DNA of 42,393 nucleotides from Tenericutes bacterium RIFOXYA12_FULL_35_10 (GCA_001830045.1 MIDA01000056.1:1-42393); one strand, 5' to 3'; numbered from the stretch's first letter, positions 23,995 to 42,393 are shown. Translations and numbers: made by a program. The notes: a model not told the origin generated them from the sequence alone.

Positions 23995-24012
23995 GATGCA
24001 CCTCACAAAACT

Positions 24013-25674: not shown

Positions 25675-26550
25675 TTAATAAAGCTCTTTGATTTTGTTTT
25701 TGTGGTGTATGTATGCACCAAGCATACCCGAATCATTTTTGAGTGTTGCTAGTTTAATCTCAAATGAATCCATGAAGTAAGGTTCAAGTATTTGATTTAA
25801 GGCATTTTTGAGTTCTTTGATGAATTGATCGCCACGATCAGATATACCACCACCGATTAAAATGAGTTTAGGATTTAATGCATAAACTAAATTGATGATT
25901 CCAGATGATAGGTGGAAATAGAATTCATTTATGATTTCTTTTGCAAGTTCGTTTCCTTGATCATATAAATCAAAAAGTTCTTTACCTGATGAGATGCTAA
26001 GTCCTTTTTCATTTGCTTTTCTTACAATGGAAGAAGTAGATGCTAAATGTTCATAGGGTTTCCCATTAATGATTAGTCGTCCCCACTCTCCCGCACTATA
26101 TGAAGCTCCATGAACGACATGCCCATGAGAAACGATTGCACCGCCAATACCAGTACCAATCGTCATGGCGATGAAATCTTGAGGTTTACCATCACCATAA
26201 ACAGTTTCTGCAAGTGCTGCGCAGTTAACATCATTTTCAACAGTAGTAAAACAGTTCGTTTCAGTTTCGATGATTTCTTTAATCTTTAAACCGGTGTAAT
26301 CTTTAATTGTTCCAGTGGTTGCTAACACGACACCATGATCAGGATCAATCACACCAGCTGAACTCACAGCAACCCCGATAATATCTGTATCTTTTTGAAA
26401 AACCTTAACTTTTTCAATCACTTGATTCATGATGGCGAATCCGCCATCTTTTTGATTGGTTGGCATTTCATCTCTGAAGATGAGTTTACCTTTTTCATTG
26501 ATTAAACCATATTTAATGGATGTACCACCAATGTCAAAACTTGCAATCAT
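25675..26550 (-). CDS. ROK family sugar kinase (BglK-like)
   Basis: A 291-residue cytoplasmic kinase. It shows the phosphate-1 loop FDIGGTSIKYG, the catalytic ENDVNCAAL segment, the phosphate-2 loop TIGTGIGGAI, and a GEWGR motif. The classic CxCGxxGC zinc motif is missing, as in beta-glucoside kinase BglK, which it resembles in length and in the INEFY and IGGGIS segments. The likely reaction is ATP-dependent 6-phosphorylation of an imported sugar or disaccharide. Its ATG overlaps the stop of the upstream lipoprotein gene by 4 bp, so the two are coupled. It belongs to the TTGACTATACA regulon and may act on what the 29.8-42 kb transporter brings in. Confidence 0.88.
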   Translation of the reverse strand: MIASFDIGGTSIKYGLINEKGKLIFRDEMPTNQKDGGFAIMNQVIEKVKVFQKDTDIIGVAVSSAGVIDPDHGVVLATTGTIKDYTGLKIKEIIETETNCFTTVENDVNCAALAETVYGDGKPQDFIAMTIGTGIGGAIVSHGHVVHGASYSAGEWGRLIINGKPYEHLASTSSIVRKANEKGLSISSGKELFDLYDQGNELAKEIINEFYFHLSSGIINLVYALNPKLILIGGGISDRGDQFIKELKNALNQILEPYFMDSFEIKLATLKNDSGMLGAYIHHKNKIKELY

Positions 26551-27410
26551 GATGGGATTACCGGTAAAGTAACAGTTGTTTGATTATAAGCTGAAATAAC
26601 AATTTCTACATCAAATGTAATCGAATCTCTTGTCATAATCATATCGATCGTACGCACGTATCCACTTTCAATGGTTAAAACAAAGTTTGAAACAATCGAA
26701 CTATTTAAAAATGATTGTAAGCTTGTGTAATATTCCATCTTAAGTAAATATGTTGTAATGCCGTTACTTGTTTGTTCTGCAAAGTAATTTTTTGAAAAGT
26801 TGGTTAAGAAACTAAGTTCAGAGGTTCCTTTTTCACTGCACGTCGTTATACTCTTCGTCCAAACATCATTGATGTTTTCATAAATATAACATGTTTCACC
26901 ATCAACTTCATAATAAATTGTATCCCCAAGTGCTTCAACAGAAGCAGTCGTTTCACCCATTTTAACAATGACAGGATAAGATGTTTCATCTGAAGTAAAT
27001 GTGATGTTCATCGTATAGCTCAATAAACCATTCATATTATTTAAAGCTTCTTCAAGAGGATGAATAGGAATGATGGCTGCCTTAACTAAAACGGTAAATG
27101 AGACTTCATCTTCTTGATTCCCTAAAGTAAGTGTTGCTGTTAATGTCACTTCAGTGTCCACTTCAGGGCGAACAACAACACCTGTAGCATTGATGATATT
27201 GGGGTGACTTGATTCCCATGTGATCGTCACATCTTCAATTTCAGTCATTAAATCAAGTGATTCTGTGACAGCGTCTTCTGTATCACTTCCACGATAACCA
27301 ACGACGACATCATCTAAATAATCATCTAAATTGATTTCTTCAGTTGGGTCACATGCAAATAAAGTTAGGCTAAATAAGAGTGTAAAAATAGTTAATAATA
27401 GTTTTTTCAT
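26547..27410 (-). CDS. Lipoprotein with one Ig-like domain
   Basis: A 287-residue lipoprotein. The signal peptide MKKLLLTIFTLLFSLTLFAC ends in the lipobox LFAC. An Ig-like unit follows with ITWESSHPNIINATGVV and TEVTLTATL. The C-terminal 170 residues are beta-rich with periodic YSVxxxM-type strands and look like a LolA/LppX-type or DUF-like fold, which I cannot name. The ATG at 27410 has GCGAGGTG upstream. An earlier in-frame start adds a non-signal leader. It is the first gene of a two-gene operon with the ROK kinase. Confidence 0.8.
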   Translation of the reverse strand: MKKLLLTIFTLLFSLTLFACDPTEEINLDDYLDDVVVGYRGSDTEDAVTESLDLMTEIEDVTITWESSHPNIINATGVVVRPEVDTEVTLTATLTLGNQEDEVSFTVLVKAAIIPIHPLEEALNNMNGLLSYTMNITFTSDETSYPVIVKMGETTASVEALGDTIYYEVDGETCYIYENINDVWTKSITTCSEKGTSELSFLTNFSKNYFAEQTSNGITTYLLKMEYYTSLQSFLNSSIVSNFVLTIESGYVRTIDMIMTRDSITFDVEIVISAYNQTTVTLPVIPS

Positions 27411-27434
27411 GTATGGACACCTCGCTCCAAATTT

Positions 27435-27463
27435 ATTGTAGCACAGCAAACATGTATAGTCAA
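27435..27463 (-). promoter_or_regulatory. Promoter with TTGACTATACA operator, lipoprotein/ROK kinase operon
   Basis: Minus strand: TTGACT (27458-27463), a 17-bp spacer and TGC-TACAAT (-10 at 27435-27440). The operator copy TTGACTATACA covers 27453-27463, on the -35 element. Confidence 0.72.
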
Positions 27464-27627
27464 TTTTGAATCTTTTATTTAAAAACGAAAGAATGATAAA
27501 GAAAAGATAAAAATTTAACCAAATAGATGAAACATACGCATATATGTCATAAATACATAAAATGTATGCGCTTTAATCATCGAAATAGGGTAAAACCATG
27601 AAAAGTATAAAAATCGTCTAATTGCTA

Positions 27628-27687
27628 TTGAAACCGCTTTTATTGTGTGATATTATACTTGTAGAGACAAGTTACTTGCATAGTCAA
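27628..27687 (+). promoter_or_regulatory. Promoter with cre-like operator and downstream TGCATAGTCAA motif
   Basis: TTGAAA (27628-27633), a 17-bp spacer and TATTAT (27651-27656) form a promoter. TGAAACCGCTTTTA (27629-27642) matches the cre consensus TGNAANCGNTNNCA with one mismatch and covers the -35. TGCATAGTCAA (27677-27687), the regulon motif with one change, lies about 20 bp past the -10. Confidence 0.62.
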
Positions 27688-27725
27688 CTTAGGTCTTAAA
27701 AATTTGAAAAAGGAAAGTGAATGCA

Positions 27726-29654
27726 ATGAAAAAACTATTTAGCTTATTGTTAATTGCGGTTTTAGGTGTATCACTTGCAGCTTGCGCCGATGATGCAATC
27801 GATTATTTACCAGTCGATGAATATCAACAACAAATTGGCGACATTCAAGATCAACTCGATGATTTGTTACCACGTGATGAATACAATCAATACGAACCAT
27901 CTCTTCTTGAAGAACTACAAACTGCAGCTGACAACTTGACGTTACCTGCTTCAATCGTAACCGATAGACTCACATTACCAACTGTACCTGATATTACCAT
28001 TATTTGGCAATCCAGTCATCCAGAATATATCAACACCAATGGTATGGTTACACAACCAAGTTTCACAACTGGTGATGTTCAAGTACAATTAACAGCGTTC
28101 TTACTTAAGGATGGACAAGTTACAACAAAGAAATTTAATCTTCTTGTTCCAGCTCTTCCAGAATCTGATCTTGAAAAAGTAGAATCAGCAGTCGGAGAAG
28201 TCGCTGACATCCTTGAAGCAGACATTATCAATGAATCAATTAATCTTCCTTCAATGATCAATGGCGCTAACGTTGAATGGGTATCAAGCAACCCAACCAA
28301 CTTAAGTGTTACTGGAAAAGTATTACGTCCTCACTTTGATCAAGCGAATGCAACTGTCGTTCTAACTGCATATGTAAGTGCTGGTAAGTATTTACAAATG
28401 TATAAGAAGACTGTTACTGTTGAAAAGATGGCATATAAACAATATGGTATGTTAGCAACTGGTCCATTCCAATTAGCAAACGCAAATGCGACTGTTGGTG
28501 CACCACTTACTTTCAAACTTTCAACACAAGATGGTCATGAAATTTATATTCCAATGAGCAATGTCAATAGAGACAACATCCTCATTTCTTCTCCATATCC
28601 AATGGTTTATACGCCAACCTTTGGTGGTGACAAAGTTCCAACTGCAGTGAATAACTTAGGTGTTGTATCTGCATCAGGTTGGGGCGTTGCATATACCGTT
28701 ATTGATGGTGTTATCGACACAATCTGGGATGGTATTGGAAACAAGATGTTCAATGCTGAAAATCCAGCAGGTGTAACTTTCCCATCAGGAACAAACTACT
28801 TAACAGATATCGCTATTCCTGAAAATGGATATGTTGTTGTATTCCATAATAGTGCAGCATCCATTGGTAATACATTAAATGGTAGAGAATTTGCACGTAA
28901 TGTTGTTGGTGTTAACACTGCAACTTTAGGCAAGACACTGACTATGAGTGGTTTAGCATTAGATGACACTGGTATCCAATTAACTGGTGGTGTATTCTGG
29001 AGAGGTTTCGTTGATGTAACTATTCCATTTGCAAACATTAACCCAGAACCATGGAAGATGTGGGTCGACTACGCTACAACTGGTATGACAACTTCTAACT
29101 TTGCGTTCTTCCAAAGCTTAACAAAGACTTCTGATGAATTAGCTCCTGCTGCTGACGGTTCAAACGTTACAGGTGCAACTCCACTGATCTTTACATCTGC
29201 TTACTTTGATGCATTTGGTGGTACAGTAATCAATACAGGTCAAGGTTATACATTAGCAGCTGTTATGAGACCAGAAGCAGAATTAACACAAATTATCCAA
29301 ATTCAAGAAGAAGATAAAGAACTTATCCTCCAAAATGAATATGAATTATATCGTGTTTATGATGGTATTGGTGGCGCTATTAAGACTAAGAATGCAGCAC
29401 AATCACCACTCGCTGGTGGCGACTCAGGTAAGAACATGCAAGTAGGACGCGATCAATTTATCGCATTCTGGGCAAACAACGGTGTTGACTATGCTTCCGA
29501 TACACACAACCGTAGAATTGCAGCAGACTACTTCTATGCAATTGATAACTGGGTTTGGGGTGTACAAGGCATTTCTGAAGAAGATATGCTTGCAGCTGGT
29601 TACCGTAAGTTCTTATTCGTTGACATTTTTGAAGATTTCGAATTTGTTGAATAA
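27726..29654 (+). CDS. Probably abundant surface lipoprotein with Ig-like domains
   Basis: A 642-residue lipoprotein whose signal peptide ends in SLAAC. A short heptad-like stretch (YQQQIGDIQDQLDDLL) follows. Two Ig-like units lie at about 70-145 (ITIIWQSSHPEYI) and 150-235 (VEWVSSNPTNLSV). The remaining 400 residues are beta-rich, with FRGFVDVTIPFANI and WVDYATTGMT, and I do not recognise them. Two-fold codons end in C (AAC, TAC, GAC, TTC) far more than in neighbouring genes, which suggests selection for high expression. AAAGGAAAG lies 11 nt before the ATG at 27726, and an in-frame GTG at 27717 is too close to the site. A major glycan-binding surface protein is a guess. Confidence 0.78.
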   Translation: MKKLFSLLLIAVLGVSLAACADDAIDYLPVDEYQQQIGDIQDQLDDLLPRDEYNQYEPSLLEELQTAADNLTLPASIVTDRLTLPTVPDITIIWQSSHPEYINTNGMVTQPSFTTGDVQVQLTAFLLKDGQVTTKKFNLLVPALPESDLEKVESAVGEVADILEADIINESINLPSMINGANVEWVSSNPTNLSVTGKVLRPHFDQANATVVLTAYVSAGKYLQMYKKTVTVEKMAYKQYGMLATGPFQLANANATVGAPLTFKLSTQDGHEIYIPMSNVNRDNILISSPYPMVYTPTFGGDKVPTAVNNLGVVSASGWGVAYTVIDGVIDTIWDGIGNKMFNAENPAGVTFPSGTNYLTDIAIPENGYVVVFHNSAASIGNTLNGREFARNVVGVNTATLGKTLTMSGLALDDTGIQLTGGVFWRGFVDVTIPFANINPEPWKMWVDYATTGMTTSNFAFFQSLTKTSDELAPAADGSNVTGATPLIFTSAYFDAFGGTVINTGQGYTLAAVMRPEAELTQIIQIQEEDKELILQNEYELYRVYDGIGGAIKTKNAAQSPLAGGDSGKNMQVGRDQFIAFWANNGVDYASDTHNRRIAADYFYAIDNWVWGVQGISEEDMLAAGYRKFLFVDIFEDFEFVE

Positions 29655-29674: not shown

Positions 29675-29708
29675 AAAGCGGAATGTTACGGCATTCCGCT
29701 TTTTCTTT
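29675..29708 (+). terminator. Rho-independent terminator
   Basis: AAAGCGGAATG pairs with CATTCCGCTTT around TTACGG, followed by a T-rich tract. It isolates the surface lipoprotein gene from the transporter operon. Confidence 0.88.
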
Positions 29709-29757: not shown

Positions 29758-29800
29758 TTGAATTGAGTTCGCAACTACGATATAATACTTATATAGACAA
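29758..29800 (+). promoter_or_regulatory. Promoter of the transporter operon with operator-like motif
   Basis: TTGAAT (29758-29763), 17 bp and TATAAT (29781-29786) make a strong promoter. TATATAGACAA (29790-29800), the regulon motif with two changes, covers the expected transcription start. Confidence 0.72.
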
Positions 29801-29845: not shown

Positions 29846-32737
29846 ATGACCATAAAACGCTTGATTATCATCGCACTTGGAGTCGTGTTGTCACTATGGA
29901 TTATCATCGGATTGTTTAGTAAAGATGAAGCCATTATGACACATGATTTTAAAAAGGATATTGAGCTTAGCACATTTGAAGATGCTGAATATCAATCATA
30001 CTTAACATCCCATGAAGACGTATTTTCAAATGAATCATACATCTTAACAGGAGATCACATTGATCCTGTTTTTAGTCATGATTATGAAATCGTATCAGGT
30101 GATTCGTATGGTAAATCAAGCAATCTCATCTTAACAGGTGAAACCTCATCTGTTCGTTTTAATGTTGATGTAAACCAGTCTGGTTATTATCATATTGAAG
30201 TTTCCTATTTTCCTGTTGAAGGAAAGAGTAGTCGTATTGAAAGAGAACTTAAAATCAACGAAGTGACACCCTATCGTGCAGCACAAAAATTATCATTTGC
30301 ACGTATTTGGGTGAGCCAAACAGAAGGTTTCACACAAGATCGTAACGGAAATGACATTATCCCAAGACAAATTGAAGAACCACGTTGGGTTAGCCAAACG
30401 TTAAAAGATAGTGAAGGTTTAATTAAAGAAGATTTACGTTTCTATTTTGAAGATGGCGTCAATACGCTCGATTGGATTGCGTATAAAGAGCCTATGTTAA
30501 TTGAATCCATTACGATTTATCAAAAAGAAGACTTAAATTCATATGAAGTTTATCAAAATGAACACCAAAACTTAGCAAATAACTTAAATGGTGATGAGAT
30601 GATCATCATTGAAGGTCAAGATATGCACGAAAAATCTTCTCCAACACTTTATCCGATTGCAGACAGAACATCTGCTATTTCAACCCCACAGAGCAGTTAT
30701 GCGCTGCGTGCAAATTCAGGTGGTGGCTATAACTGGAGAATCGTTGGAGATTGGATTTCTTATACATTTGATGTTGAAAAAGCAGGCTTTTATAACATCA
30801 GCATGCGTGCTAAACAATCATATATTCGTGGAGCTTATGTCACACGTAAAGTGATGATTGATGGGGAAGTCCCCTTTAATGAAGTCTCTGAAGTCCCATT
30901 TATCTATTCGGGTAATTGGAATGTGTATACCATGGGTGAAGAAGAAGCGTTTGAGTTCTACTTAACTCCTGGAACACACGAAATTAGTTTTGAAGTCGTT
31001 TTAGGTGACTTTAATACGTCAATTCGTGAAGTGACCGATGTGATCACAACACTCAATGAAGTGTATCGCGATATCATCATGATTACAACCGCACAACCAG
31101 ATTTATATCGTGACTACTTACTTAATGAACGTTTACCTGAAATGTTACCTACATTTGAAGAAACAAAAGAAACATTAGAAAAAATCTCTGAAGATCTTTT
31201 CATTATGACTGGTGAATCTTCAACACATACCGTGATCTTAGATAAGGTAGCTTTACAACTTGAAGCATTTATCAAAGAGCCTGAAACCATTCATAAGCGT
31301 CTTGCAGAATATCAAACCAACATTTCTGCATTAGGTACATGGGTTTTAGAAATTAAAGAACAACCGCTTGCAATCGACTATATCGCGATTCATTCGCCTG
31401 AAACTAAAATAGAAAAGATCAATGCGAATGTGTTTGAATCATTTTGGTTTAGTTTAAATAACTTTATCGCATCCTTTGTTGTTGACTATAATTCATTAGC
31501 TTCAAGTGCAGATGATGAAAATTTAGAAGGCAATATTACCGTTTGGATTGGATCTGGACGTGACCAAGCCAACATCATGAGACGTATGATCGATGAAGAG
31601 TTTACATCAACCTATAACATTGGTGTCAATTTACAACTTGTCTCTATGGATGTGTTATTACCATCAACTTTAACGAAGAGTGGACCTGATGTTGCAATAG
31701 GTGTAGGTAATTCAACACCTGTGAATTACGCGATGCGTAATGCAGTCTATGACTTATCACAATTTGATGATTTCGATTTAGTGAAAGAACGTTTCCAAGA
31801 AAGTGCATTTGTGCCTTATGCCTATTTAGATGGTTATTACGGTTTACCTGATACACAACAATTTCCAGTTATGTTTTATCGTAAAGATATTCTAGATGAA
31901 TTAAACATTGATATTCCTGAAACATGGCAAGATGTGATTGAAATCATTCCGGAATTACAACGTGTTAATCTTGATTTCTATTTACCGATTGATATTGTAG
32001 AAAACGTTCAAGGTGTTCTAGCTCCAAACGTGATGTTTGTCACACTGCTTTATCAAAATGGTGGGGAACTCTATTTGGAAGATGGTAGAATATCTGGTTT
32101 ATCAGAAAGAGTTGCGCTTGATTCGTTTAAACAATGGACAGACTTTTACACCAATTACCGTTTCCAAATTCAAGCAAACTTCGTGAACCGTTTTAGATCA
32201 GGTGAGATGCCAATTGGTATTGCTTATTACAGCATGTATAACACCTTATCTGTGTTCGCACCTGAAATTTCAGGTAACTGGGGTTTTACTGCAGTTCCTG
32301 GTGTTAAACAAGAAGATGATTCAATCAATCATGTAGTTCCCACTACAGGTACAGCAATCCTTTTAATGAATCAATCTAAACAAAAAGCGTTAGCTTGGGA
32401 ATTTATGAAGTGGTGGACAGAAGAAGATACTCAAGTGCGTTTCGGTAGAGAAATGGAAGGTATATTAGGTGCAGCAGCACGTTATCCAACCGCGAATGTC
32501 AGTGCACTCGAAAAACTACCTTGGCCAGCTCAAGACTTAGCTGTCTTAAAAGCACAATGGGATCAAACGCGTGGTATTCCTGAAGTGCCAGGTGGTTATT
32601 TTACAGGTAGACATTTAGATAATGCACTTCGTAAAGTGATTAATACGGGAGCAAACCCGAGAGATACACTTTATGAATACACAGCGATTATTAACAGTGA
32701 AATTGAAAGTAAACGAAAAGAATTTGACCTTGATTAA
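29846..32737 (+). CDS. Membrane-anchored bipartite extracellular solute-binding protein
   Basis: A 963-residue protein with an N-terminal membrane helix (residues 4-23) and no lipobox. Residues about 60-235 and 255-385 look like two beta-sandwich, CBM6/35-like modules. The second has GDWISYTFDV with AGFYNIS and ends in LTPGTHEISFEV. A helical linker follows, then from about residue 560 a complete family-1 ABC solute-binding domain (GNITVWIGSGRDQANIMRRM, AYLDGYYGLPDTQQFPVMFY, ETWQDVIEII, MPIGIAYYSMY and ALAWEFMKWWTEE). It should deliver an oligosaccharide to the permeases encoded next to it. GAGGTGG precedes the ATG at 29846. A solute-binding domain alone is usually about 400-450 residues, so the extra 550 are the unusual part. 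Confidence 0.87.
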   Translation: MTIKRLIIIALGVVLSLWIIIGLFSKDEAIMTHDFKKDIELSTFEDAEYQSYLTSHEDVFSNESYILTGDHIDPVFSHDYEIVSGDSYGKSSNLILTGETSSVRFNVDVNQSGYYHIEVSYFPVEGKSSRIERELKINEVTPYRAAQKLSFARIWVSQTEGFTQDRNGNDIIPRQIEEPRWVSQTLKDSEGLIKEDLRFYFEDGVNTLDWIAYKEPMLIESITIYQKEDLNSYEVYQNEHQNLANNLNGDEMIIIEGQDMHEKSSPTLYPIADRTSAISTPQSSYALRANSGGGYNWRIVGDWISYTFDVEKAGFYNISMRAKQSYIRGAYVTRKVMIDGEVPFNEVSEVPFIYSGNWNVYTMGEEEAFEFYLTPGTHEISFEVVLGDFNTSIREVTDVITTLNEVYRDIIMITTAQPDLYRDYLLNERLPEMLPTFEETKETLEKISEDLFIMTGESSTHTVILDKVALQLEAFIKEPETIHKRLAEYQTNISALGTWVLEIKEQPLAIDYIAIHSPETKIEKINANVFESFWFSLNNFIASFVVDYNSLASSADDENLEGNITVWIGSGRDQANIMRRMIDEEFTSTYNIGVNLQLVSMDVLLPSTLTKSGPDVAIGVGNSTPVNYAMRNAVYDLSQFDDFDLVKERFQESAFVPYAYLDGYYGLPDTQQFPVMFYRKDILDELNIDIPETWQDVIEIIPELQRVNLDFYLPIDIVENVQGVLAPNVMFVTLLYQNGGELYLEDGRISGLSERVALDSFKQWTDFYTNYRFQIQANFVNRFRSGEMPIGIAYYSMYNTLSVFAPEISGNWGFTAVPGVKQEDDSINHVVPTTGTAILLMNQSKQKALAWEFMKWWTEEDTQVRFGREMEGILGAAARYPTANVSALEKLPWPAQDLAVLKAQWDQTRGIPEVPGGYFTGRHLDNALRKVINTGANPRDTLYEYTAIINSEIESKRKEFDLD

Positions 32738-32748
32738 GGAGTGATGAA

Positions 32749-33720
32749 ATGAGTGCTTTAATAGACAAAGTGAATCAACGTTTTCATCGCTACCTTGATA
32801 AAAAAAGGGAAGTTCGTGAAAAAAGAAAGTTAGAAAGAAAACGTGATTTTAAGAGAAGTAGAGATTTATATATTCTCTTAACACCCTATTTCTTACTGTT
32901 CTTTCTTTTTACCGTGTTACCGGTTGCGATTTCGTTGATTTTTAGTTTTACATATTTCAATATGCTTGAGTTTCCAAAATGGGCAGGATGGGAAAATTAT
33001 CGCAGACTGTTCTTTGAAGATGATGTGTTTTTAATTGCGATTAAAAATACCATTATGTTTGCAGTCATTACAGGTCCGCTTGGATATTTGGGATCGTTTG
33101 TGTTTGCATGGCTTGTCAATGAATTAAAACCTAAAGTCAGATCCGTAATGACCTTAATTATATATGCACCTTCGATTTCAGGTGGCGCTTATATCATTTG
33201 GAGACTGATTTTCTCTGGTGATATGTATGGATATGCGAACGCATTTTTAATTCGTTATGGCATCGTCTTAGAACCGATTCAATGGCTACAAAACCCTGAC
33301 TTTATTCCATTTATTATTATTTTAGTGCAGTTATGGTTATCTTTAGGGGTATCATTCCTCGCGTTTATTGCTGGTCTTCAAGGTGTTGACCGCACATTAT
33401 ATGAAGCGGGAGCAGTCGATGGTATTAAAAACCGTTGGCAAGAATTATGGTATATTACACTACCTTCCATTAAACCTCAACTTATGTTCTCTGCAGTTAT
33501 TCAAATCACTGCATCTTTAGCGATTGCAGAAGTAGCAATGAATATTGCAGGTTTCCCATCGGTTGAGTATGCTGGTCATACGATTGTTACGCATTTAATT
33601 GACGTAGGTAATCTACGTTTTGAAATGGGTTACGCATCTGCGATTGCAACGATTTTGTTTGTCATGATGTTAGGTGGCAACTTAATCGTTCAAAAATTAT
33701 TAAGAAGGGTGGGTACTTAG
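32749..33720 (+). CDS. Sugar ABC transporter permease, MalF/UgpA type (pair 1)
   Basis: A 323-residue inner membrane permease with six helices and the EAA loop EAGAVDGIKNRWQELWYITL, which contacts the ATPase. A highly basic N-terminal tail of about 40 residues (KKREVREKRKLERKRDFKR) precedes the first helix. The sequence YILLTPYFLLFFLFTVLPV is typical of the family's first segment. AAGGAG precedes the ATG. It lies 11 bp after the binding-protein gene and 1 bp before its MalG-type partner. Confidence 0.93.
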   Translation: MSALIDKVNQRFHRYLDKKREVREKRKLERKRDFKRSRDLYILLTPYFLLFFLFTVLPVAISLIFSFTYFNMLEFPKWAGWENYRRLFFEDDVFLIAIKNTIMFAVITGPLGYLGSFVFAWLVNELKPKVRSVMTLIIYAPSISGGAYIIWRLIFSGDMYGYANAFLIRYGIVLEPIQWLQNPDFIPFIIILVQLWLSLGVSFLAFIAGLQGVDRTLYEAGAVDGIKNRWQELWYITLPSIKPQLMFSAVIQITASLAIAEVAMNIAGFPSVEYAGHTIVTHLIDVGNLRFEMGYASAIATILFVMMLGGNLIVQKLLRRVGT

Positions 33721-33721
33721 T

Positions 33722-34651
33722 ATGGCAAAACGTCAAAAAGGATACCATCCGAAAAAAAGAAATATCCTTTACCGTGTGATTAAGAAACTTATGCGTCTGA
33801 TTCAACCCGGTAATGCATTAAATCGTTCTTTAGGTGGCGATGTCGTTTTATTACTGACATTACTTCTATTTGGTATGTTTACCGCATATCCGATGGTTTT
33901 TATCATCAATAATGCGTTTAAACCCTTATCAGAAATTTTAGTGTTCCCACCTAAACTATTTGTGAGAAACCCGACTTTAAATAACTTTACTGACCTCATT
34001 TTATTGATGTCAGAATCTTGGATTCCAGTTTCACGATACGTATTTAATACCGTTTTAATCACAGTAGTCGGAACGACTGGACATGTCATTTTCGCATCCA
34101 TGGCAGCCTATCCGCTTGCTAAACATAAGTTTCCTGGTGTTAAGGGGTTAAATAAGGTTGTTGTTTATTCCTTAATGTTTAATGGAGCTGTAACAGCAAT
34201 CCCAGCTTATGTCATTATGACACAACTTGGATTAATCGATACCCTATGGGCGATCATCCTACCTGCATTTGCCTTTTCATTAGGTTTATATTTGATGAAA
34301 AACTTTATGGAACAAATTCCAACAACGTATATTGAATCTGCGTATATGGATGGCGCATCCGAGTATCAAATTTTTTGGAAGATTGTGATGCCTTTAGTGA
34401 AACCAGCGTGGTTAACGTTAATCATTTTATCTTTCCAAACTCTCTGGGGTGCAACCGGTGGTCAGTATATTTATGATGAAGCATTAAAACCTTTAAGCTT
34501 CGCATTAAACCAGATTGTTGGTGGCGGTATCGCAAGAACAGGTGTGGTTGCAGCTGTATCACTTTTCATGATGATTGTACCTGTGACAGTATTCATCATT
34601 TCCCAAAGTTCAATCATTGAAACAATGGCCCACTCGGGCATTAAGGAGTGA
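33722..34651 (+). CDS. Sugar ABC transporter permease, MalG/UgpE type (pair 1)
   Basis: A 309-residue permease, six membrane helices, with the EAA loop ESAYMDGASEYQIFWKIVMP and the usual MalG-like NTVLITVVGTTGHV segment followed by PLAKHKFPG. It should form a heterodimer with the preceding MalF-type protein. It starts immediately after the stop of that gene, with AAGGGTGGG upstream. No ATPase gene is present in the operon, so a shared MsmK/UgpC-like ATPase elsewhere is expected. Confidence 0.93.
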   Translation: MAKRQKGYHPKKRNILYRVIKKLMRLIQPGNALNRSLGGDVVLLLTLLLFGMFTAYPMVFIINNAFKPLSEILVFPPKLFVRNPTLNNFTDLILLMSESWIPVSRYVFNTVLITVVGTTGHVIFASMAAYPLAKHKFPGVKGLNKVVVYSLMFNGAVTAIPAYVIMTQLGLIDTLWAIILPAFAFSLGLYLMKNFMEQIPTTYIESAYMDGASEYQIFWKIVMPLVKPAWLTLIILSFQTLWGATGGQYIYDEALKPLSFALNQIVGGGIARTGVVAAVSLFMMIVPVTVFIISQSSIIETMAHSGIKE

Positions 34652-34655
34652 GACC

Positions 34656-36134
34656 ATGAAAAAAATAACATTATTATTGATGCTTGTGTTTGTTTCTATC
34701 TTTGGTTTTTCACTTCAGGTAAATGCACAAACCAATTATCCATCCTATACCTATGATTACTGGCGTACACCACTACCTGGTGTAAGCCCTTATCGTGTTA
34801 AACAAGTTGTTTTAGGAACTTCCATTAATATTTCACTCCCAGATGATCCTGAAACTGCAAATAAGACACTAAAATATGTTGAAGATTTGTTTGTGACAGA
34901 AGATCACTACTACATCGTTGATCTTCAATCTCAAAAAATTATTATTACGGATAAATCATTTAACGTCGAAAAGATTATTCGTGACATCCCTGAATATGAT
35001 GAAACGGATACATTAATTAATACGTATACCCTTGTTCGTCCACGTGGTATTTATGTTACAGAAGAGTATATCTATGTTGTTGATGAAAATGATTTAACAA
35101 ACGGTTATGTCTACGTCATCAGCCATGATGGTGAGTTTGTTGCCAGATACGGTAGACCTGATAATCCAACGTATAACGCGGTTGTTTTTAAACCTAATAA
35201 GATTGTTGTTGACAGAGCGGGTAGAATGTATATCGTTGTTGTGGGTGCCTTTGATGGCATTGTGGAACTCCAAAGAGATGGAACATTCTCACGTTTCGTT
35301 GGGGTACAACCTGTTCAAGTCAATCCACTGGATCTCTTATGGCGCTCATTTTTATCAAGAGAACAACTTTCAACCGTGAGATTATTCTTACCTGTTGAAT
35401 ATAATGCCATGAGTATTGACAATGAAGGGTTTATTTACGCAACCTCATCAGGAACTTCATCAGCCCCCATTCAACGGATCAACCCCAAAGGGATGGACGT
35501 TTTAAGAAAGAACGGATACGTTGATCCCATTGGTGATGTTGTAAGAATGCCTGACCAAGTCAGAAGTGGATTAACATCTATTAGTGTCAACGATTATGGC
35601 ATGTATAGTGTTTTAGACCGTTCGAATAAAAAGATTTTTACCTATAATGATGAAGGCTATTTAGCGTATGTTACAGGTTTTGAAGGAGAATTTGAAGGGA
35701 ATTTCTTATTTCCAACCGCGATTAAATATGATCATGAAAATTTAGTGGTTGCAGATTCAACCGATTCAAGAACCATCATCACGATTTTTGAACCTACAGC
35801 ATTTGGGTCTTTAGTCAATGAAGCAAGTAAACTCACATACGACGGTGAATCGATTGATGCATCAGCCGTTTGGGAAGACATCTTAGTGATGAACTCTAAC
35901 TATTCACTCGCATATGTTGGTATCGGTCATGCATACTACAGAGAACGCATGTATAAAGAAGCGATGGATGCATATCAACTTGGACAAGATAGAGAAAATT
36001 ATTCAAAAGCGTATAAGGAATACAGAAAAATTCGTTTTGAGGCAAACTTTCCGTTAGTCGCAACCTTCATTGGTTTAATCATTGCCTTTTCACTCGCATA
36101 TCCGATTATTAAAGATTTAACAAAGAAAGAGTAG
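34656..36134 (+). CDS. Exported beta-propeller (NHL-like) protein with TPR-like stretch and C-terminal membrane anchor
   Basis: A 492-residue protein. It has a cleavable signal peptide ending near VNAQ, then repeated beta-propeller blades with the NHL-like pattern RPRGIYVTEEYIYVVD, KPNKIVVDRAGRMYIV and FPTAIKYDHENLVVAD over about residues 60-390. A helical TPR-like pair (YSLAYVGIGHAYYRERMYKE, then AMDAYQLGQ) follows. A C-terminal helix (FPLVATFIGLIIAFSLAYPI) anchors it with a short basic tail inside. It lies outside the membrane beside the transporter. It may scaffold or sense glycans, but I do not know a function for the family. AAGGAG precedes the ATG at 34656, and an upstream in-frame start lies inside the permease gene. 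Confidence 0.82.
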   Translation: MKKITLLLMLVFVSIFGFSLQVNAQTNYPSYTYDYWRTPLPGVSPYRVKQVVLGTSINISLPDDPETANKTLKYVEDLFVTEDHYYIVDLQSQKIIITDKSFNVEKIIRDIPEYDETDTLINTYTLVRPRGIYVTEEYIYVVDENDLTNGYVYVISHDGEFVARYGRPDNPTYNAVVFKPNKIVVDRAGRMYIVVVGAFDGIVELQRDGTFSRFVGVQPVQVNPLDLLWRSFLSREQLSTVRLFLPVEYNAMSIDNEGFIYATSSGTSSAPIQRINPKGMDVLRKNGYVDPIGDVVRMPDQVRSGLTSISVNDYGMYSVLDRSNKKIFTYNDEGYLAYVTGFEGEFEGNFLFPTAIKYDHENLVVADSTDSRTIITIFEPTAFGSLVNEASKLTYDGESIDASAVWEDILVMNSNYSLAYVGIGHAYYRERMYKEAMDAYQLGQDRENYSKAYKEYRKIRFEANFPLVATFIGLIIAFSLAYPIIKDLTKKE

Positions 36135-36142
36135 GTGAGACC

Positions 36143-36835
36143 ATGCGTCGTCTGACATTAACAAGACAACAAGTGAATCAAGTAGCCGTAAGCATAAAGC
36201 ATGCTCTTTCTTATTTCTATGAGCATTTTATTAAATTTCCTTTTTATGTGTTAACACATCCGATTGATGGTTTCTATGAAATGAAACATGAACATAGAGG
36301 ACTTCTTAGAGTAGCGACCTTTTATATCTTGCTTCATGGTATTTTAGGTATTTTAGAATATAACTATACGGGTTTTATCTTTAACACCATTAACCCAAAC
36401 ACGTTTAGAATGTTTAGAAGTATTGTGGTTGCACTTGTACCATACATGATTTTTGTGGTTGCCAATTGGTCAATCACATCACTGATGGATGGTAAAGGGA
36501 AATTAAAAGAAATCTATATGGTTGTCGGTTATGCCTTTTTCCCAAGTGTTTTCTTAAGAATCTTAAATCTTTTCTTAAGTAACTACTTTACGATGGATGA
36601 AGCCTTTTTCTATCATGCAATTCAAGCTGTAGGCTTTGGATTAACGATTTTAATGATTTTTATGGGTATTCGTTCCATTCATGAATATTCTGTAATGCGT
36701 GCTCTATCAACGGTATTTTTATCATTTGTGAGTATGCTTGTGATTGTCTTTATTGGACTGCTTGCGATTGGTTTAGCTCAACAGATTGCTGTGTTTATCA
36801 CAACCATCATCAAAGAGCTAACCTTAAGATTATAG
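36143..36835 (+). CDS. YIP1 family membrane protein
   Basis: A 230-residue protein with about five membrane helices. The segment FYVLTHPIDGFYEMKHEHRG before the first helix and the GKGKLKEIYMVVGYAFFPSV element are characteristic of Yip1-domain proteins in bacteria. Its role is unknown. It lies 8 bp after the propeller gene and 12 bp before the DUF5696 gene, with GTAGGTGAGACC before the ATG. Its fixed place in the operon suggests it assists assembly or trafficking of the transporter or the anchored proteins. Confidence 0.82.
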   Translation: MRRLTLTRQQVNQVAVSIKHALSYFYEHFIKFPFYVLTHPIDGFYEMKHEHRGLLRVATFYILLHGILGILEYNYTGFIFNTINPNTFRMFRSIVVALVPYMIFVVANWSITSLMDGKGKLKEIYMVVGYAFFPSVFLRILNLFLSNYFTMDEAFFYHAIQAVGFGLTILMIFMGIRSIHEYSVMRALSTVFLSFVSMLVIVFIGLLAIGLAQQIAVFITTIIKELTLRL

Positions 36836-36847
36836 GAGGTTAATATC

Positions 36848-39406
36848 ATGAAAAAAATCATCTTATTACTCCTCATTATGGGTAGTATTGCACTCTATTT
36901 CATCTTGAACCAACCACCAAAATCAGAGATTCAAGATTTATATTTGAAAAATGAAACATCTCAAATTATGGATATCGCTTTTATTGAATCAACGAGAAAT
37001 GTTTCGGGTTATGACCTGATTGCAGAAAATAATTTCTTAAAACTCTTTATGAATGATAGAAATTCTCATTTCGCAGTGGTTGATAAACGAAATGATTACG
37101 TATGGTACTCCAACTATTTCACATCAGACCCTAAAGCAACAAAGACGTATCAGAACTTACAGAAATCAACGTTTTCTCTCAGATATAGAGAAACCGATAA
37201 TACAACGAAACTGATGACTAATTACGAATATTCCATTCAAAATCAACAATTTGAGATCGATCTTGAATCGGTTGAAGATGGATTTAGAATAGATTATACG
37301 GTAGCAGATCGTTCACCTAAGGGTTACTGGTTTCCAACTAAAATTTCTAAAGAGCGCTTTGAAGAACTGATTTATAATCCGTTTGTCTCCCATGAGTTTG
37401 AAAGTCCTGCGCAATACACAGAACTTGATCGCTATTTAAGAAATGCGTATAAACCCTTAGAAGATGATCCAAATACGTATATTTTAGCGCTTGTTACAGG
37501 TGATAAAACATCTTCAGATTTAGTAGGAACAGATATTAGTTATCTTTATGAAATTTTATATGAAATTGGGCATTACGGTAATAAACAAGACGAACTTGGA
37601 AACTACATCGAAGAATACCATTTTGATGATGTCAACTTTGATAACGATATGTATGGTTATGAAGTTGAAATTAAAGATCCTGAGTTCTTTATCCCAATGA
37701 CCGTAAAACTTACTGAAGACAGTGTGGTTGCAACGATCATCACTGAAGAGATTGTTGCTAAAGAACCTTATGACATTATCTCCATCAATTTCCTTCCTTA
37801 CTTTGGTGCGGCTAATGAAACCAAAGAAGGTTATATGGTGATTCCTGAAGGTTCTGGTGGTATTATCAATTTTACGAATGGTAAGACACAGCAAAGATCT
37901 TATACGACATATCTTTATGATCAAGATCACACGCTGATTCCTGCAAAACTTTCGATGCAAGATGTGGGTGCTAAAATGCCTATTTACGGATTAAAGCATG
38001 AAAATAATGCGATACTTGCCGTGATTGAAGGTGGTGCAGAGCATGCGATGTTAACTGCTGAAATTTCTGGTAAAAACGATCGTTTTAACAAGATTATGCC
38101 AGAGTTTACGTTTAAAGATAGCGGTCTTTACTATTTAACACAATCCGGTATATCGATTTGGAATGAAGATACATATGATTATCAACCTGAAATTCGTTAT
38201 TATTTTACAGAAGGTGAAGATGCAAATTACACAGGTCTAGCACATGTATATAAAGATTATCTTCAGATGAAATATGATCTTGAAGTTTTAGAAAACAAGA
38301 AGACATCACTTTATTTAGATATTTTAGGTTCTTATGATTTTGATGATTATTTTTTATTTTTTCCATATAAACGTGTTGAAACGTTAACAACCTATAGACA
38401 AGCTCAAACCATGATTGAGTCCCTTAAAAATCAAGGTGTGAATCATATGGTTGCTAACTATAAGGGTTGGTTTAATAAAGGTATGGAACATGAAAGACCA
38501 GATCATATCAACCTTGATTCATCGTTGGGTACTAAAAAAGCATTTCAAGCATTTAATCGCTATATGGAAGAACAAGGCTATCCTCTCTTTTATGATGTTG
38601 AGTTTATGAAATTATACGATAAGTCATCACTTTATAATAATGCGAACATCTCACGTATCGTGGGTGGCACGATGATGGAATATTACCCATATGACCAAGC
38701 ATCAAGACTACCGATTAAGACAGAAGATCCTTATTACTTACTTAAGCTTTCAGCAATCGATGAAAACATTGAAGGATTCTTACGTGATGCAAACAAATTA
38801 GAGCTTCCAGGTATCAACCTAACCAGTTTAGGACAAGAACTTTATAGCGATTTCCATAAGAATCACCAGCTTTATCGCTATGAAGCCGTTGATTACATCA
38901 TGGACATGATGCAAAATGTGAAGGATCATACATCAGTGATGGTGACATCATCAAACGATTATGCATTACCTTTCGCCGATTATTTAGTTGATTTAACCTA
39001 TCAAACATCTAATTATTTAGTCGTTGATTATGCAATTCCTTTTTATCAGATGGCAATTTCAGGCATGATTGATTATGCGATGCCTTCCATCAATTTAGGT
39101 CAAAACGAAGTTGATCAATACTATGTATTAAAAGCACTTGAAACGGGATCAAATTTAAAGTTTACCGTTTCATACGAAGATACATCACAACTGATTAACA
39201 CCCGTTTTAATAACTTTTTCTCAACAGAGTTTTCGTTAATCGAAAACAACATGGTTCAGCTTTATCAAGAACTCTATAACGTCATTGGTGATGATAACTA
39301 TATCATCAGCCATGAAGTTACTTTAGCAGGAGAAGTTGTTGTTACATATGTCAAAGGACAAGTGATTACAATCAATTATCAAAATCTAACGTATACGGTA
39401 CAGTAA
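36848..39406 (+). CDS. DUF5696 family membrane-anchored protein, glycoside hydrolase-like
   Basis: An 852-residue protein with an N-terminal membrane anchor (IILLLLIMGSIALYFIL) and an extracellular remainder. Residues about 50-480 are beta-rich, with FAVVDKRNDYVWYSN and FEIDLESVEDGFRIDYTVAD, like the mutarotase-type sandwich before some glycosidase barrels. From about 517 the pattern changes to alternating helix and strand (QAQTMIESLKNQGVNHMVAN, PLFYDVEFMKLYD, SVMVTSSNDYALPFADYLVD), consistent with a (beta/alpha)8 barrel. Candidate acidic catalytic residues occur in FYDVEF and in the GQELYSDF region. I assign it to DUF5696 from memory of similar proteins in such transporter loci. TAGGAGG precedes the ATG. 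Activity is inferred, not shown. Confidence 0.72.
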   Translation: MKKIILLLLIMGSIALYFILNQPPKSEIQDLYLKNETSQIMDIAFIESTRNVSGYDLIAENNFLKLFMNDRNSHFAVVDKRNDYVWYSNYFTSDPKATKTYQNLQKSTFSLRYRETDNTTKLMTNYEYSIQNQQFEIDLESVEDGFRIDYTVADRSPKGYWFPTKISKERFEELIYNPFVSHEFESPAQYTELDRYLRNAYKPLEDDPNTYILALVTGDKTSSDLVGTDISYLYEILYEIGHYGNKQDELGNYIEEYHFDDVNFDNDMYGYEVEIKDPEFFIPMTVKLTEDSVVATIITEEIVAKEPYDIISINFLPYFGAANETKEGYMVIPEGSGGIINFTNGKTQQRSYTTYLYDQDHTLIPAKLSMQDVGAKMPIYGLKHENNAILAVIEGGAEHAMLTAEISGKNDRFNKIMPEFTFKDSGLYYLTQSGISIWNEDTYDYQPEIRYYFTEGEDANYTGLAHVYKDYLQMKYDLEVLENKKTSLYLDILGSYDFDDYFLFFPYKRVETLTTYRQAQTMIESLKNQGVNHMVANYKGWFNKGMEHERPDHINLDSSLGTKKAFQAFNRYMEEQGYPLFYDVEFMKLYDKSSLYNNANISRIVGGTMMEYYPYDQASRLPIKTEDPYYLLKLSAIDENIEGFLRDANKLELPGINLTSLGQELYSDFHKNHQLYRYEAVDYIMDMMQNVKDHTSVMVTSSNDYALPFADYLVDLTYQTSNYLVVDYAIPFYQMAISGMIDYAMPSINLGQNEVDQYYVLKALETGSNLKFTVSYEDTSQLINTRFNNFFSTEFSLIENNMVQLYQELYNVIGDDNYIISHEVTLAGEVVVTYVKGQVITINYQNLTYTVQ

Positions 39407-39418
39407 AGGAGGTATGAC

Positions 39419-40396
39419 ATGAAAGCATTGACATTAAAAGTGAAAAAACCAATGTCTTATGATAAACAAAAGATGCTTTTTGGTATCCTCTTTTTAGCAC
39501 CTTGGCTTATTGGTTTTGCAGGTATCTTCTTATACTCCATGATTGATTCTGTCATTTATAGTTTATCTAACGTCTACTTTCTTGGACCAGCATCTGCAGA
39601 TCAAGTCGCTGCCTATATTGCAGATCAAGGGCTTGTTGGACAAACCTTCTTCAAAATGGGTATTTTATTCGAATTTGTCGGATTAGATAACTTTGTATAC
39701 GCATGGAATGTACATTCAGAGTATCGTAGAGTCTTGATCAGTTCCATGGTCGAATCACTCATAAATTTACCTGTCATTTTGATTTTTAGCTTGTTGATAG
39801 CAACGATGTTAAATACGAAGTTTAAAGGAAATGTATTTGCAAGAGCTATTTTCTTCCTTCCCGTTATTTTAGCATCAGAAGCTGTAACCATCGCTTTATC
39901 ACAAGCGGTTGATCTTCAAGCGCTTATGCAAGGAGATAGCTTAGGTATTTTTGGAAATTTCCAATTAAATACATTACTGATTGAATCCGGATTTCCAGAA
40001 TCAGTAGTTGAATTTTTAGTTTCAATCGTGAATACCATTTTCGTGATTATATCATTAGCTGGTGTGCAGATTCTAATCTTCTTAGCAGGCTTACAATCCA
40101 TACCAACACATTTATATGAAGCAGCAAAAGTAGAAGGTGCAACTCCTTATGAATCATTTTGGAAGATTACGATTCCGATGGTTTCACCACACGTGATTAC
40201 AGTGGGTGTGTTTACCATAGTAGATTCATTTTTAAAGAGTCCAGTGACTTCACTTATTATTCAAACGAAAGATAATCAACAGTATGGCGTTTCTTCAGCC
40301 ATGGCGTGGATTTATTTTGTTGCTGTCATGTTACTTTTAGGAATCTTTGTATATCTAGCGAATAAGGGGGCATTCTATTATGATGACGAACGTTAA
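39419..40396 (+). CDS. Sugar ABC transporter permease, MalF type (pair 2)
   Basis: A 325-residue permease with six helices and the EAA loop EAAKVEGATPYESFWKITIP. The loop after the first helix is long (about residues 50-100, with a DQVAAYIADQGLVGQTFFKMG segment) and may reach the binding protein or a glycan. AAAGGAGG precedes the ATG. It overlaps the next permease gene by 17 bp. The protein is not a copy of the first MalF-type permease of this operon, so the two pairs are probably functionally distinct. Confidence 0.92.
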   Translation: MKALTLKVKKPMSYDKQKMLFGILFLAPWLIGFAGIFLYSMIDSVIYSLSNVYFLGPASADQVAAYIADQGLVGQTFFKMGILFEFVGLDNFVYAWNVHSEYRRVLISSMVESLINLPVILIFSLLIATMLNTKFKGNVFARAIFFLPVILASEAVTIALSQAVDLQALMQGDSLGIFGNFQLNTLLIESGFPESVVEFLVSIVNTIFVIISLAGVQILIFLAGLQSIPTHLYEAAKVEGATPYESFWKITIPMVSPHVITVGVFTIVDSFLKSPVTSLIIQTKDNQQYGVSSAMAWIYFVAVMLLLGIFVYLANKGAFYYDDER

Positions 40397-41396
40397 ATCA
40401 TGGTTTGCTAAACTTGTTATTCGTTTGAAAAAAGGGTTATCAAAATCAAAAGAAAAAGTGACAAGCAAAGCGTTTAAGTTTACTGTTGTCAATAAGACAA
40501 AACAGACATCGATTTCCATCATTAGAGGATTTATTATCTTTGGTTTATGTTTTATTGTGATTTATCCGATTTTACAGATGATTGTTGCAAGTATCAGTGA
40601 TTTAAGGGATTTAAATGATCCTTTAGTCGTTTGGATACCAAGAACGATCAGTTTGCAGACAATCAAGATTGCAGCATCCGCCATTGATTATTTTGCTGCT
40701 TTAAGAAATACATTTATCATGGCTGTAGGAGTGATGGTCATTACACTCTTTACAACATCATTAGCAGGTTATGCATTCGCAAGACTTCGTTTTAAAGGGA
40801 TGACGGTGTTATTCATTTTTGTGGTGTTCACCATCGTTGTACCCCCACAAACGATTGCTATGCCGATGTTTATGATCTTTAATTACTTTGGATTAACCTC
40901 TACCTTCTGGCCGCTCTTTATTTTGGCGTTTACAGGTATGGGAATTAAGGCTGGGATTTTCATTTTCATCTTTAATCAGGTGTTTAGAAATCTTCCTAAA
41001 GAATTAGAAGAAGCTGCTTTAATTGATGGTTGTGGTATCGTAAGAACATTTTATAATGTGATGTTACCTAATGCCAAGAGTGCTGTGGTTACAGTGATGT
41101 TATTCTCATTCGTTTGGCAGTGGAATGATGTATTCTACTCACAACTTTTGATTAGTACACAATATTTAGATCTACTTTCATTAAATATTGCAGAAATTGC
41201 ACCTCGTCTGACTTATATTTTGTATCAACTTGGTATCGACCAGACGGTTGCAGAAGGTATGTCTAGAAATCCACTGGTTGTGGGAACGATTGCGAATACA
41301 GCAGCGATTTTAATGTTATTACCTTTATTGATTGGATATATTTTTGTACAACGACTTTTCGTAGAAAGCGTTGAACGCGTAGGGATCGTGGGTTAA
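40380..41396 (+). CDS. Sugar ABC transporter permease, MalG type (pair 2)
   Basis: A 338-residue permease with a basic N-terminal tail of about 45 residues, six helices and the EAA loop EAALIDGCGIVRTFYNVMLP. The segment TTSLAGYAFARLRFKG is typical of MalG-like permeases. AAGGGGG lies upstream of the ATG at 40380 and a second ATG follows directly at 40383. The stop TAA overlaps by one base with the ATG of the next gene (TAATG), so coupling is likely. It pairs with the MalF-type protein just upstream. Confidence 0.92.
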   Translation: MMTNVKSWFAKLVIRLKKGLSKSKEKVTSKAFKFTVVNKTKQTSISIIRGFIIFGLCFIVIYPILQMIVASISDLRDLNDPLVVWIPRTISLQTIKIAASAIDYFAALRNTFIMAVGVMVITLFTTSLAGYAFARLRFKGMTVLFIFVVFTIVVPPQTIAMPMFMIFNYFGLTSTFWPLFILAFTGMGIKAGIFIFIFNQVFRNLPKELEEAALIDGCGIVRTFYNVMLPNAKSAVVTVMLFSFVWQWNDVFYSQLLISTQYLDLLSLNIAEIAPRLTYILYQLGIDQTVAEGMSRNPLVVGTIANTAAILMLLPLLIGYIFVQRLFVESVERVGIVG

Positions 41397-42393
41397 TGGA
41401 TCAATTGATGAAAAAGCATCACTCCAAGTTTACATGGTTGATGGACTGGGTATATCTCTTAGTTATGATCAACTTAATGGCCATTGCTGGAACTGTTATC
41501 GGTTTCGGTGTTTTAGGCTTCTTTCCAGCTTGGATGACAGCTCATCAGTTGATTAAACGTAAATTAAACCAAGAAGATTTTCAGTTAGGTAAGTCGTTTG
41601 TTGAAACGTATAAATCTTATTTTTGGAAATCTAATAAGTTAGGCTATGTCTTAGTCAGTTTAGGATTAGTCATTGCATTGAGTTGGATTTATTACATTAG
41701 AGATTTAAGTTCCACATTTCATTGGGTAGGCATGGTTGGTGTTGGGTTTCTCGCATTTATTTGGTTACTCATGATGGGAATCACGCCGATTAGTTTTGTG
41801 TATTTCCCTAAATTTAAAATGGGTGAACATTTGAAGTTCACGTTGATTATGACAATGGGTATGCCTGGCTTAGCATTAATTATCTTTTTAAATTCACTTT
41901 TCTTTTATGGGATTGTCATGATTAGATTCATCTCAATTTTCCCATTCTTAGCTTTTACACTTCCCGCACTTGTGAATTTATTGTTTGCACGTAAAAAACT
42001 ATTAAAAGTATTCACAGTTTTTAAAGATGAGCACACCATGATTAGAACGTTAAACTCATATGCGCATACAGAAGATTTATGGGGACTATGGAATGAAAGT
42101 TATCCTGAGGTTCCTGTGAATCACGATCAGTTATTGTCATGGTTTAAAGATGATCAAAAGATCAACCATCGCGCATCACTCGTGTTAACAAATACCAAAG
42201 AAGAAACTTTGGGCATGCTTCTAACACGTGTTCAAGGTAAAGTTTTATATATCGAACTCATGATGGTTGATGCCAGTTATCAGCGAAGAGGTTATGGTAA
42301 GAAGATGCTAAGTTGGATCGAAAAAGTATCGAAGGAAGCTGAGATTGAGTCACTATGTATTGGTTCTGAAGAAAGTTTATTTCAAGCATTACC
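41396..42393 (+). CDS. DUF624 (YesL-like) membrane domain fused to a GNAT acetyltransferase, cut by window edge
   Basis: The frame is open from ATG at 41396 to the right edge (332 codons). Residues about 1-205 are a polytopic DUF624/YesL-type domain. It begins with WLMDWVYLLVMINLMAIAGT, then has the FFPAWMTAHQLIK element and further helices. After a cytoplasmic linker with ARKKLLKVFTVFKDE, residues about 215-332 read as a GNAT fold. The strand LYIELMMVDASYQ leads into RRGYGKKML, the acetyl-CoA binding motif (Q/R)xxGxG. DUF624 proteins often accompany carbohydrate ABC transporters in Bacillota. A fused acetyltransferase is not something I know. The C-terminal end of the GNAT domain is beyond the window. 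Confidence 0.8.
   Translation, partial: MDQLMKKHHSKFTWLMDWVYLLVMINLMAIAGTVIGFGVLGFFPAWMTAHQLIKRKLNQEDFQLGKSFVETYKSYFWKSNKLGYVLVSLGLVIALSWIYYIRDLSSTFHWVGMVGVGFLAFIWLLMMGITPISFVYFPKFKMGEHLKFTLIMTMGMPGLALIIFLNSLFFYGIVMIRFISIFPFLAFTLPALVNLLFARKKLLKVFTVFKDEHTMIRTLNSYAHTEDLWGLWNESYPEVPVNHDQLLSWFKDDQKINHRASLVLTNTKEETLGMLLTRVQGKVLYIELMMVDASYQRRGYGKKMLSWIEKVSKEAEIESLCIGSEESLFQAL

Follow-up and report, generated by a model that had tools for sequence, protein, structure and literature searches.

A probable glycan-uptake module of eight genes, in one order in wall-less Acholeplasma relatives, Paenibacillus and gut clostridia

We found that the operon closing the window, the 42,393-nucleotide stretch of DNA from Tenericutes bacterium RIFOXYA12_FULL_35_10 that we analysed, is one copy of a putative eight-gene glycan-uptake module, which has the same gene order in wall-less relatives of Acholeplasma, in Paenibacillus and in gut clostridia. 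The module is probably a modular, ATPase-less importer of the CUT1 type for glycan chains or long oligosaccharides, in which a constant engine would serve swappable substrate parts. Nine head-to-tail genes, all on the plus strand, span 29846-42393. An earlier note on this DNA had described MalF/MalG pairs on both sides of three poorly understood genes, with gaps of 1-12 bp or overlaps throughout, and both descriptions held. Domain assignment by Pfam and NCBIfam identified four CUT1-type permeases flanking the propeller, YIP1 and DUF5696 genes, and the gaps measure, in operon order, 11, 1, 4, 8, 12 and 12 bp, followed by overlaps of 17 and 1 bp. The features are as follows; the start codons of the large binding protein (lSBP) and the propeller were chosen by context.

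29675..29702, plus strand: terminator-like hairpin with a 12-bp stem, parting the upstream lipoprotein gene from the operon (consensus match only)
29758..29786, plus strand: promoter-like site TTGAAT-17-TATAAT ahead of the operon (consensus match only)
29846..32737, plus strand: lSBP, giant tethered binding protein (ATG 29846; Pfam SBP_bac_1, E 4e-23, residues 580-866)
32749..33720, plus strand: MalF1 permease, constant half (Pfam BPD_transp_1)
33722..34651, plus strand: MalG1 permease, constant half (Pfam BPD_transp_1)
34656..36134, plus strand: secreted NHL-type propeller with TPR and a C-terminal TM helix (ATG 34656; weak NHL/TPR matches only)
36143..36835, plus strand: YIP1-family membrane protein (Pfam Yip1, E 3.3e-15)
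36848..39406, plus strand: DUF5696 protein with N-terminal anchor, beta sandwich and GH129-like TIM barrel (Pfam, E 9e-159)
39419..40396, plus strand: MalF2 permease, variable half (Pfam BPD_transp_1)
40380..41396, plus strand: MalG2 permease, variable half (Pfam BPD_transp_1)
41396..42393, plus strand, running beyond the window end: DUF624/YesL membrane protein fused to a GNAT acetyltransferase (PF04854, PF00583)

The DUF5696 match (PF18952) reaches 530 bits against a Pfam gathering score of 25.6. The ninth gene, the YesL-GNAT fusion, is present at its full length of 379 amino acids in a related locus (L030), and MalF2 and MalG2 are apparently one fused protein in two others (L029 and L044).

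To the earlier note the operon looked selected as a whole, an idea that a lack of co-occurrence in other genomes would refute. We selected loci by DUF5696 similarity alone and examined the best 79 of 516 relatives in GTDB genomes. The eight core genes occurred in identical order and strand in all 58 of these loci that were long enough, covering Acholeplasmataceae, Izemoplasma, Haloplasma, Bacillus, Lederbergia, Cohnella, Paenibacillus, Lachnospiraceae and Oscillospiraceae; the 58 are the closest DUF5696 matches, and their lineages are not independent. The converse was assessed in 392 genomes of the GTDB phylum, with the N-terminal 510 residues of lSBP as the only part of that protein used. DUF5696 and the lSBP N-domain occurred together in 47 genomes, DUF5696 alone in two (in one the frame is partial, in the other it stands where a contig begins) and the N-domain alone in none; the Fisher value of 7e-59 ignores shared ancestry and is not to be read literally. 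For 83 of the 99 DUF5696 matches, the N-domain lay 5.5-9 kb upstream on the same strand, and unpaired matches are partly an artefact, because scoring was limited to three candidates per genome. The module appears to be present in about 12% of the sampled genomes, in up to five copies per genome. Given the order in 58 of 58 loci and the 47/2/0 co-occurrence, the gene arrangement exceeds chance, and the idea of a unit survived its test. The similar gene sets that the note placed in Paenibacillus-type Bacillota were likewise found in Paenibacillus, and its view that the operon has no described function was supported: a literature search found no paper naming DUF5696, and searches on YIP1, NHL, SBP and polysaccharide utilisation found no description of the module. 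In 20 of the 58 loci, propeller and YIP1 are a single protein; in those checked by hydropathy the propeller precedes the TM segments, and in the one tested Pfam recognised both domains. DUF624 was detected next to the module in some of the loci but not in all.

The proteins of the module differ widely in how far they have diverged. Mean identity between lineages is 59% for MalF1, 55% for MalG1 and 48% for the lSBP ligand domain, then 40% for MalG2, 38% for MalF2 and for YIP1, 37% for the lSBP jelly rolls, 34% for the propeller, 27% for DUF5696 and 21.5% for the small SBP described below. Parts expected to meet different sugars vary most, and lSBP with the neighbouring MalF1/MalG1 barely changes with the substrate, a correlation in sequence rather than a mechanism; the gradient could also reflect partner contacts rather than function. 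Distance-matrix co-evolution paired lSBP with DUF5696, the small SBP with MalG2, and MalF2 with MalG2, partnerships that are confounded by shared ancestry and to which we gave no weight.

The earlier note had also proposed a glycan import machine, and the enzymes encoded beside the modules support this proposal. Flanking sets differ between copies, pointing to peptidoglycan sugars, beta-1,2-glucan, laminarin-type glucan, mannan, xylan or, for the window copy, a HexNAc glycan. The window genome has at least five copies: besides that in the window, one on contig C11 (PF10091 endo-glucanase, GH3 and SOGP 1,2-beta-oligoglucan phosphorylase), one on C33 (GH16), and truncated modules on C27 (with sulfatase, GH35 and PF10091) and C19 (with its small SBP upstream). 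Haloplasma copies are accompanied by NAGPA, GHL10, GH20 and DUF4127, those of Paenibacillus by GH26+CBM35 with GH2 mannosidase, GH38, GH30, GH53 and GH20, and those of Lachnospiraceae by GH10, GH3 and GH67. Most exo-enzymes beside modules have no signal peptide. The main argument for import is that these partners are cytosolic: with phosphorylases, MurQ, GH67 and signal-less GH10, GH3 and NamZ inside the cell, oligomers would have to enter it.

The claim that did not hold was that of a single binding protein. A small SBP adjoins 55 of the 58 complete modules, 41 just upstream and 14 downstream, and was not detected at three loci, one of which begins close to a contig end, whereas in the other two a long antisense ORF covers the site. 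Paenibacillus encodes this ~470-amino-acid protein upstream of the module, Lachnospiraceae downstream of it, and its profiles also match a ~530-amino-acid lipoprotein upstream of the A. laidlawii-type module. A relative with a window-type operon (G034) has its small SBP ~20 kb further on (L128:10678-12609), and that of the window genome, 83-84% identical, is on contig C87 (L177:7558-9492). The operon appeared to have one binding protein because the window's contig (C56), in a genome of 2.05 Mb in 106 contigs, ends at 42801. The genes of contigs C82 and C87 follow the order of relatives G034 and G029 (GxGYxYP-like, NanE, SGNH esterase and GHL10, then GH84, FAD oxidoreductase, GH38, GntR regulator, NAGPA and SBP), and judging from this synteny the window operon apparently continues from C56 onto C82 and C87. 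NanE, GH84, GH38, SGNH esterase, GHL10 and NAGPA indicate that the substrate of the window copy is a HexNAc-rich glycan; they do not separate host N-glycan from bacterial wall polymer. The Ig-type lipoprotein at 27717-29654 was considered as the missing small SBP and rejected: the small-SBP profiles are silent on it, and the terminator-like hairpin intervenes.

The absence of an ATPase from the window, also noted before, was confirmed, and a Walker A plus LSGGQ screen of about 100 related loci found no ABC ATPase either. Orphan ATPases serving several ATPase-less importers are established in Bacillota (PMC7658222). Of the three close UgpC/MsmX-type ATPases in the window genome, two lie beside their own permeases; the best, at G000:C3:17200 (492 bits, above the curated cut-off), has no transporter gene next to it, its neighbours being unrelated genes such as tpi and pgk, and by analogy it may be what powers the module.

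With pores and binding proteins that are CUT1 parts, the module is no categorical novelty, but its fixed nine-part architecture with swappable enzymes is undescribed in the literature that we found. Like it, the MsmX-served importers YtcPQ-YteP, YesOPQ and MdxEFG of B. subtilis combine an SBP with a MalF/MalG-type pair, have glycan enzymes alongside and lack an ATPase in the operon, theirs being an orphan encoded elsewhere (PMC7658222). In contrast, each has one pair and one SBP, without DUF5696, propeller, YIP1 or an SBP of ~970 amino acids. The accessory proteins YesL/MusI (DUF624) also stand beside maltose-type importers, whereas the window type is fused to a GNAT acetyltransferase. Bacteroidota polysaccharide utilisation loci similarly couple substrate-specific enzymes to an uptake complex of their own, and one genome has several such loci; the module differs in its ABC permeases, and Pfam found no SusC or SusD domain in the nine genes. 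A putative, unnamed uptake system of fixed architecture and swappable specificity appears to be present across Bacillota; it suggests possible roles for proteins of the DUF5696, YIP1 and DUF624 families, and from it substrates can be predicted for many orphan operons.

DUF5696 had been read as an anchored hydrolase-like protein at the importer mouth. The fold bears this out: an AF2 model (pLDDT 88.1, pTM 0.85, from a 75-sequence alignment) consists of an N-terminal helix, beta sandwich, TIM barrel and C-terminal beta domain, and Foldseek placed ZgGH129 and NagBb at the top (5opq, E 1e-26; 5wzq, E 5e-24; TMt 0.66-0.73), followed by GH101 and GH36. Short DUF5696 sequence matches point to the same PDB entries. 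The GH129 enzymes NagBb and ZgGH129/DagB share this sandwich, barrel and C-terminal domain, but identity is about 11%, and DUF5696 is membrane-anchored and encoded inside an ABC operon. PF11308 (Glyco_hydro_129) gave no DUF5696 match at E<=1, and no GH129 relatives for a direct profile comparison were found in the phylum, where the controls were silent too. Active hydrolysis is doubtful. The GH129 nucleophile is D435 in NagBb and D486 in ZgGH129 (PMC5698469), and the corresponding site at the end of strand 4, residues 656-663, placed with moderate certainty by proportion in the barrel rather than by superposition, holds no conserved D or E in the 75 sequences. It carries R, D, G, T, S and others, and differs even between orthologues that are 70% identical. 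From these sequences, loss of hydrolytic activity is likely. Because D491 (89%), D727 (93%) and E765 (100%) are conserved, an unusual activity is possible.

We therefore weighed other readings against the importer proposed above. A reading in which DUF5696 cleaves glycans, as a membrane-anchored exo-glycosidase of a GH129-like family, and the rest of the module imports its products seems decidedly unlikely. It would fit the fold and the conserved D727 and E765, and catalytic residues can shift within the GH129 fold, because ZgGH129 and NagBb are both active with only one catalytic residue in common (PMC5698469). The freely varying nucleophile site argues against it, as does the fact that this one fold class accompanies many alpha- and beta-linked glycans. 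Also unlikely, if a little less strained, is a pair of ordinary importers that work independently, each on a different product of one glycan (lSBP with MalF1/MalG1, and the small SBP with MalF2/MalG2), the accessories being minor. Each permease pair has an SBP candidate and keeps its EAA loops, and B. subtilis has two ATPase-less RG importers, YesOPQ and YtcPQ-YteP (PMC7658222). However, the pairs are never parted by loss of DUF5696, NHL or YIP1 in the 58 loci, and the lSBP ligand domain is 48% identical across copies neighbouring peptidoglycan, xylan and mannan enzymes, which is odd for a substrate-specific receptor; that lSBP and MalF1/MalG1 barely change with substrate makes a plain pair of importers doubtful.

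This constancy, together with a propeller-TM-YIP1 architecture resembling a membrane sensor, could suggest instead that lSBP, MalF1/MalG1, propeller and YIP1 do not transport but serve to sense or regulate glycan availability. We consider this very unlikely: Pfam found no cytoplasmic signalling domain in the eight proteins, the enzyme loci often carry their own LacI, GntR or histidine-kinase regulators, and a regex screen of relatives found the EAA coupling loop in 89/89 MalF1 and 91/91 MalG1 sequences (and in 98/99 MalG2 and 88/101 MalF2, leaving 13 MalF2 without a match). Bolder, and quite unlikely, is a two-engine polysaccharide translocase, in which lSBP-MalF1-MalG1 would select no sugar; driven by ATP, it would move, strip or feed long glycan chains, kept in place by DUF5696 and propeller-YIP1, into a substrate-specific MalF2-MalG2 pore. 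Gram-positive and wall-less bacteria would then swallow chains rather than short sugars, and one Acholeplasmataceae copy would import peptidoglycan strands, a polymer not made there.

In the importer that we favour, the small lipoprotein SBP, MalF2/MalG2 and DUF5696 would form the substrate-facing, fast-changing half, and lSBP with MalF1/MalG1 the conserved half, little changed whatever glycan the neighbouring enzymes handle. Propeller and YIP1, which many species encode as a single fused protein, would act as one unit; together with DUF5696, itself anchored in the membrane, they probably serve as a scaffold for the chain at the importer mouth or align it there. Both pores are probably powered by one shared orphan MsmX-like ATPase, and imported chains would then be cut by the co-encoded cytosolic exo-enzymes and phosphorylases; for the window copy, the chain would be a HexNAc-rich glycan. 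Gene order, co-occurrence, the two SBPs, the enzyme sets, the folds and the conservation gradient were established by computation; in this scheme we infer transport itself, the assembly of a complex, the sharing of an ATPase, the length of the chains and a binding rather than cleaving role for DUF5696. In an AF2 model of lSBP (pLDDT 88.3), the N-terminal TM helix is followed by two jelly rolls and then, after a helical stretch, by the SBP domain; the first jelly roll has sub-threshold similarity to CBM35, and the SBP domain matches sugar-binding SBPs in Foldseek. The substrate-independent constancy of lSBP and MalF1/MalG1 was the result that we least expected.

We read the window genome as that of an uncultured member of the Acholeplasmataceae, a family to which A. 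laidlawii, A. equifetale and A. oculi belong, along with numerous reduced genomes. By gene content the family is wall-less, since none of its 88 genomes has a penicillin-binding transpeptidase, compared with 10 of 14 control genomes. One copy type in this family, the A. laidlawii type, is accompanied by a NamZ exo-muramidase, GH3, a BadF-type kinase, MurQ and NagB; MurQ and NagB are above the NCBIfam cut-offs, GH3 is at the N-acetylhexosaminidase cut-off, and NamZ and GH3 have no signal peptide. This copy is likely a peptidoglycan-sugar importer, for a wall sugar that these bacteria do not make, and the module predicts that wall-less Acholeplasma feed on the peptidoglycan sugars of other bacteria; a literature search on NamZ or MurQ in Acholeplasma found nothing. 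Of the 88 family genomes, 27 carry NamZ. It is encoded about 2.6-3 kb downstream of a DUF5696 gene in 23 of them, and in the other four, the window genome (contig C21) included, it is on a different or broken contig.

In copies of the module of the beta-1,2-glucan type, what looks like a single protein of about 625 aa (L029:4180-6069 and L044:6747-8621) stands in place of the second permease pair. This apparent fusion of MalF2 and MalG2 argues that the two together build one pore. A second fusion lies in the window itself, where a GNAT acetyltransferase is joined to DUF624/YesL in one protein (41396-42393); read to the contig end, this protein comprises 379 aa (L030:5396-6535). Window-type relatives carry counterparts of like length (L127, L129 and L138), whereas YesL in other modules is a stand-alone protein of about 213 aa. 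At the start of contig C82 of the source genome (L167:1-520), the GxGYxYP gene comes after a stretch of Ns and a fragment that resembles a pseudouridine synthase; this looks like a scaffold join, and the assembly there should therefore be read with care.

Genes for peptidoglycan-sugar catabolism (NamZ, GH3, MurQ and NagB; L048:15143-20856) adjoin a copy of the module, and 26 more Acholeplasmataceae genomes, including the source genome (C21:2318), carry a set of this type. None of the 88 genomes of this family encodes a penicillin-binding transpeptidase.

DUF4127 (PF13552), encoded in the window at 24129-25637, is found repeatedly close to module copies from lineages that are not related (L039, L041, L075-L077, L110, L130, L132 and L139), and its function may be connected with HexNAc glycans. 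Upstream of the operon, the genes at 21856-24006 and 26547-29654 encode a lipoprotein family with repeated atrophied Ig domains (aBig_2); judged by eye, the former apparently ends in a C-terminal C39-like peptidase domain.
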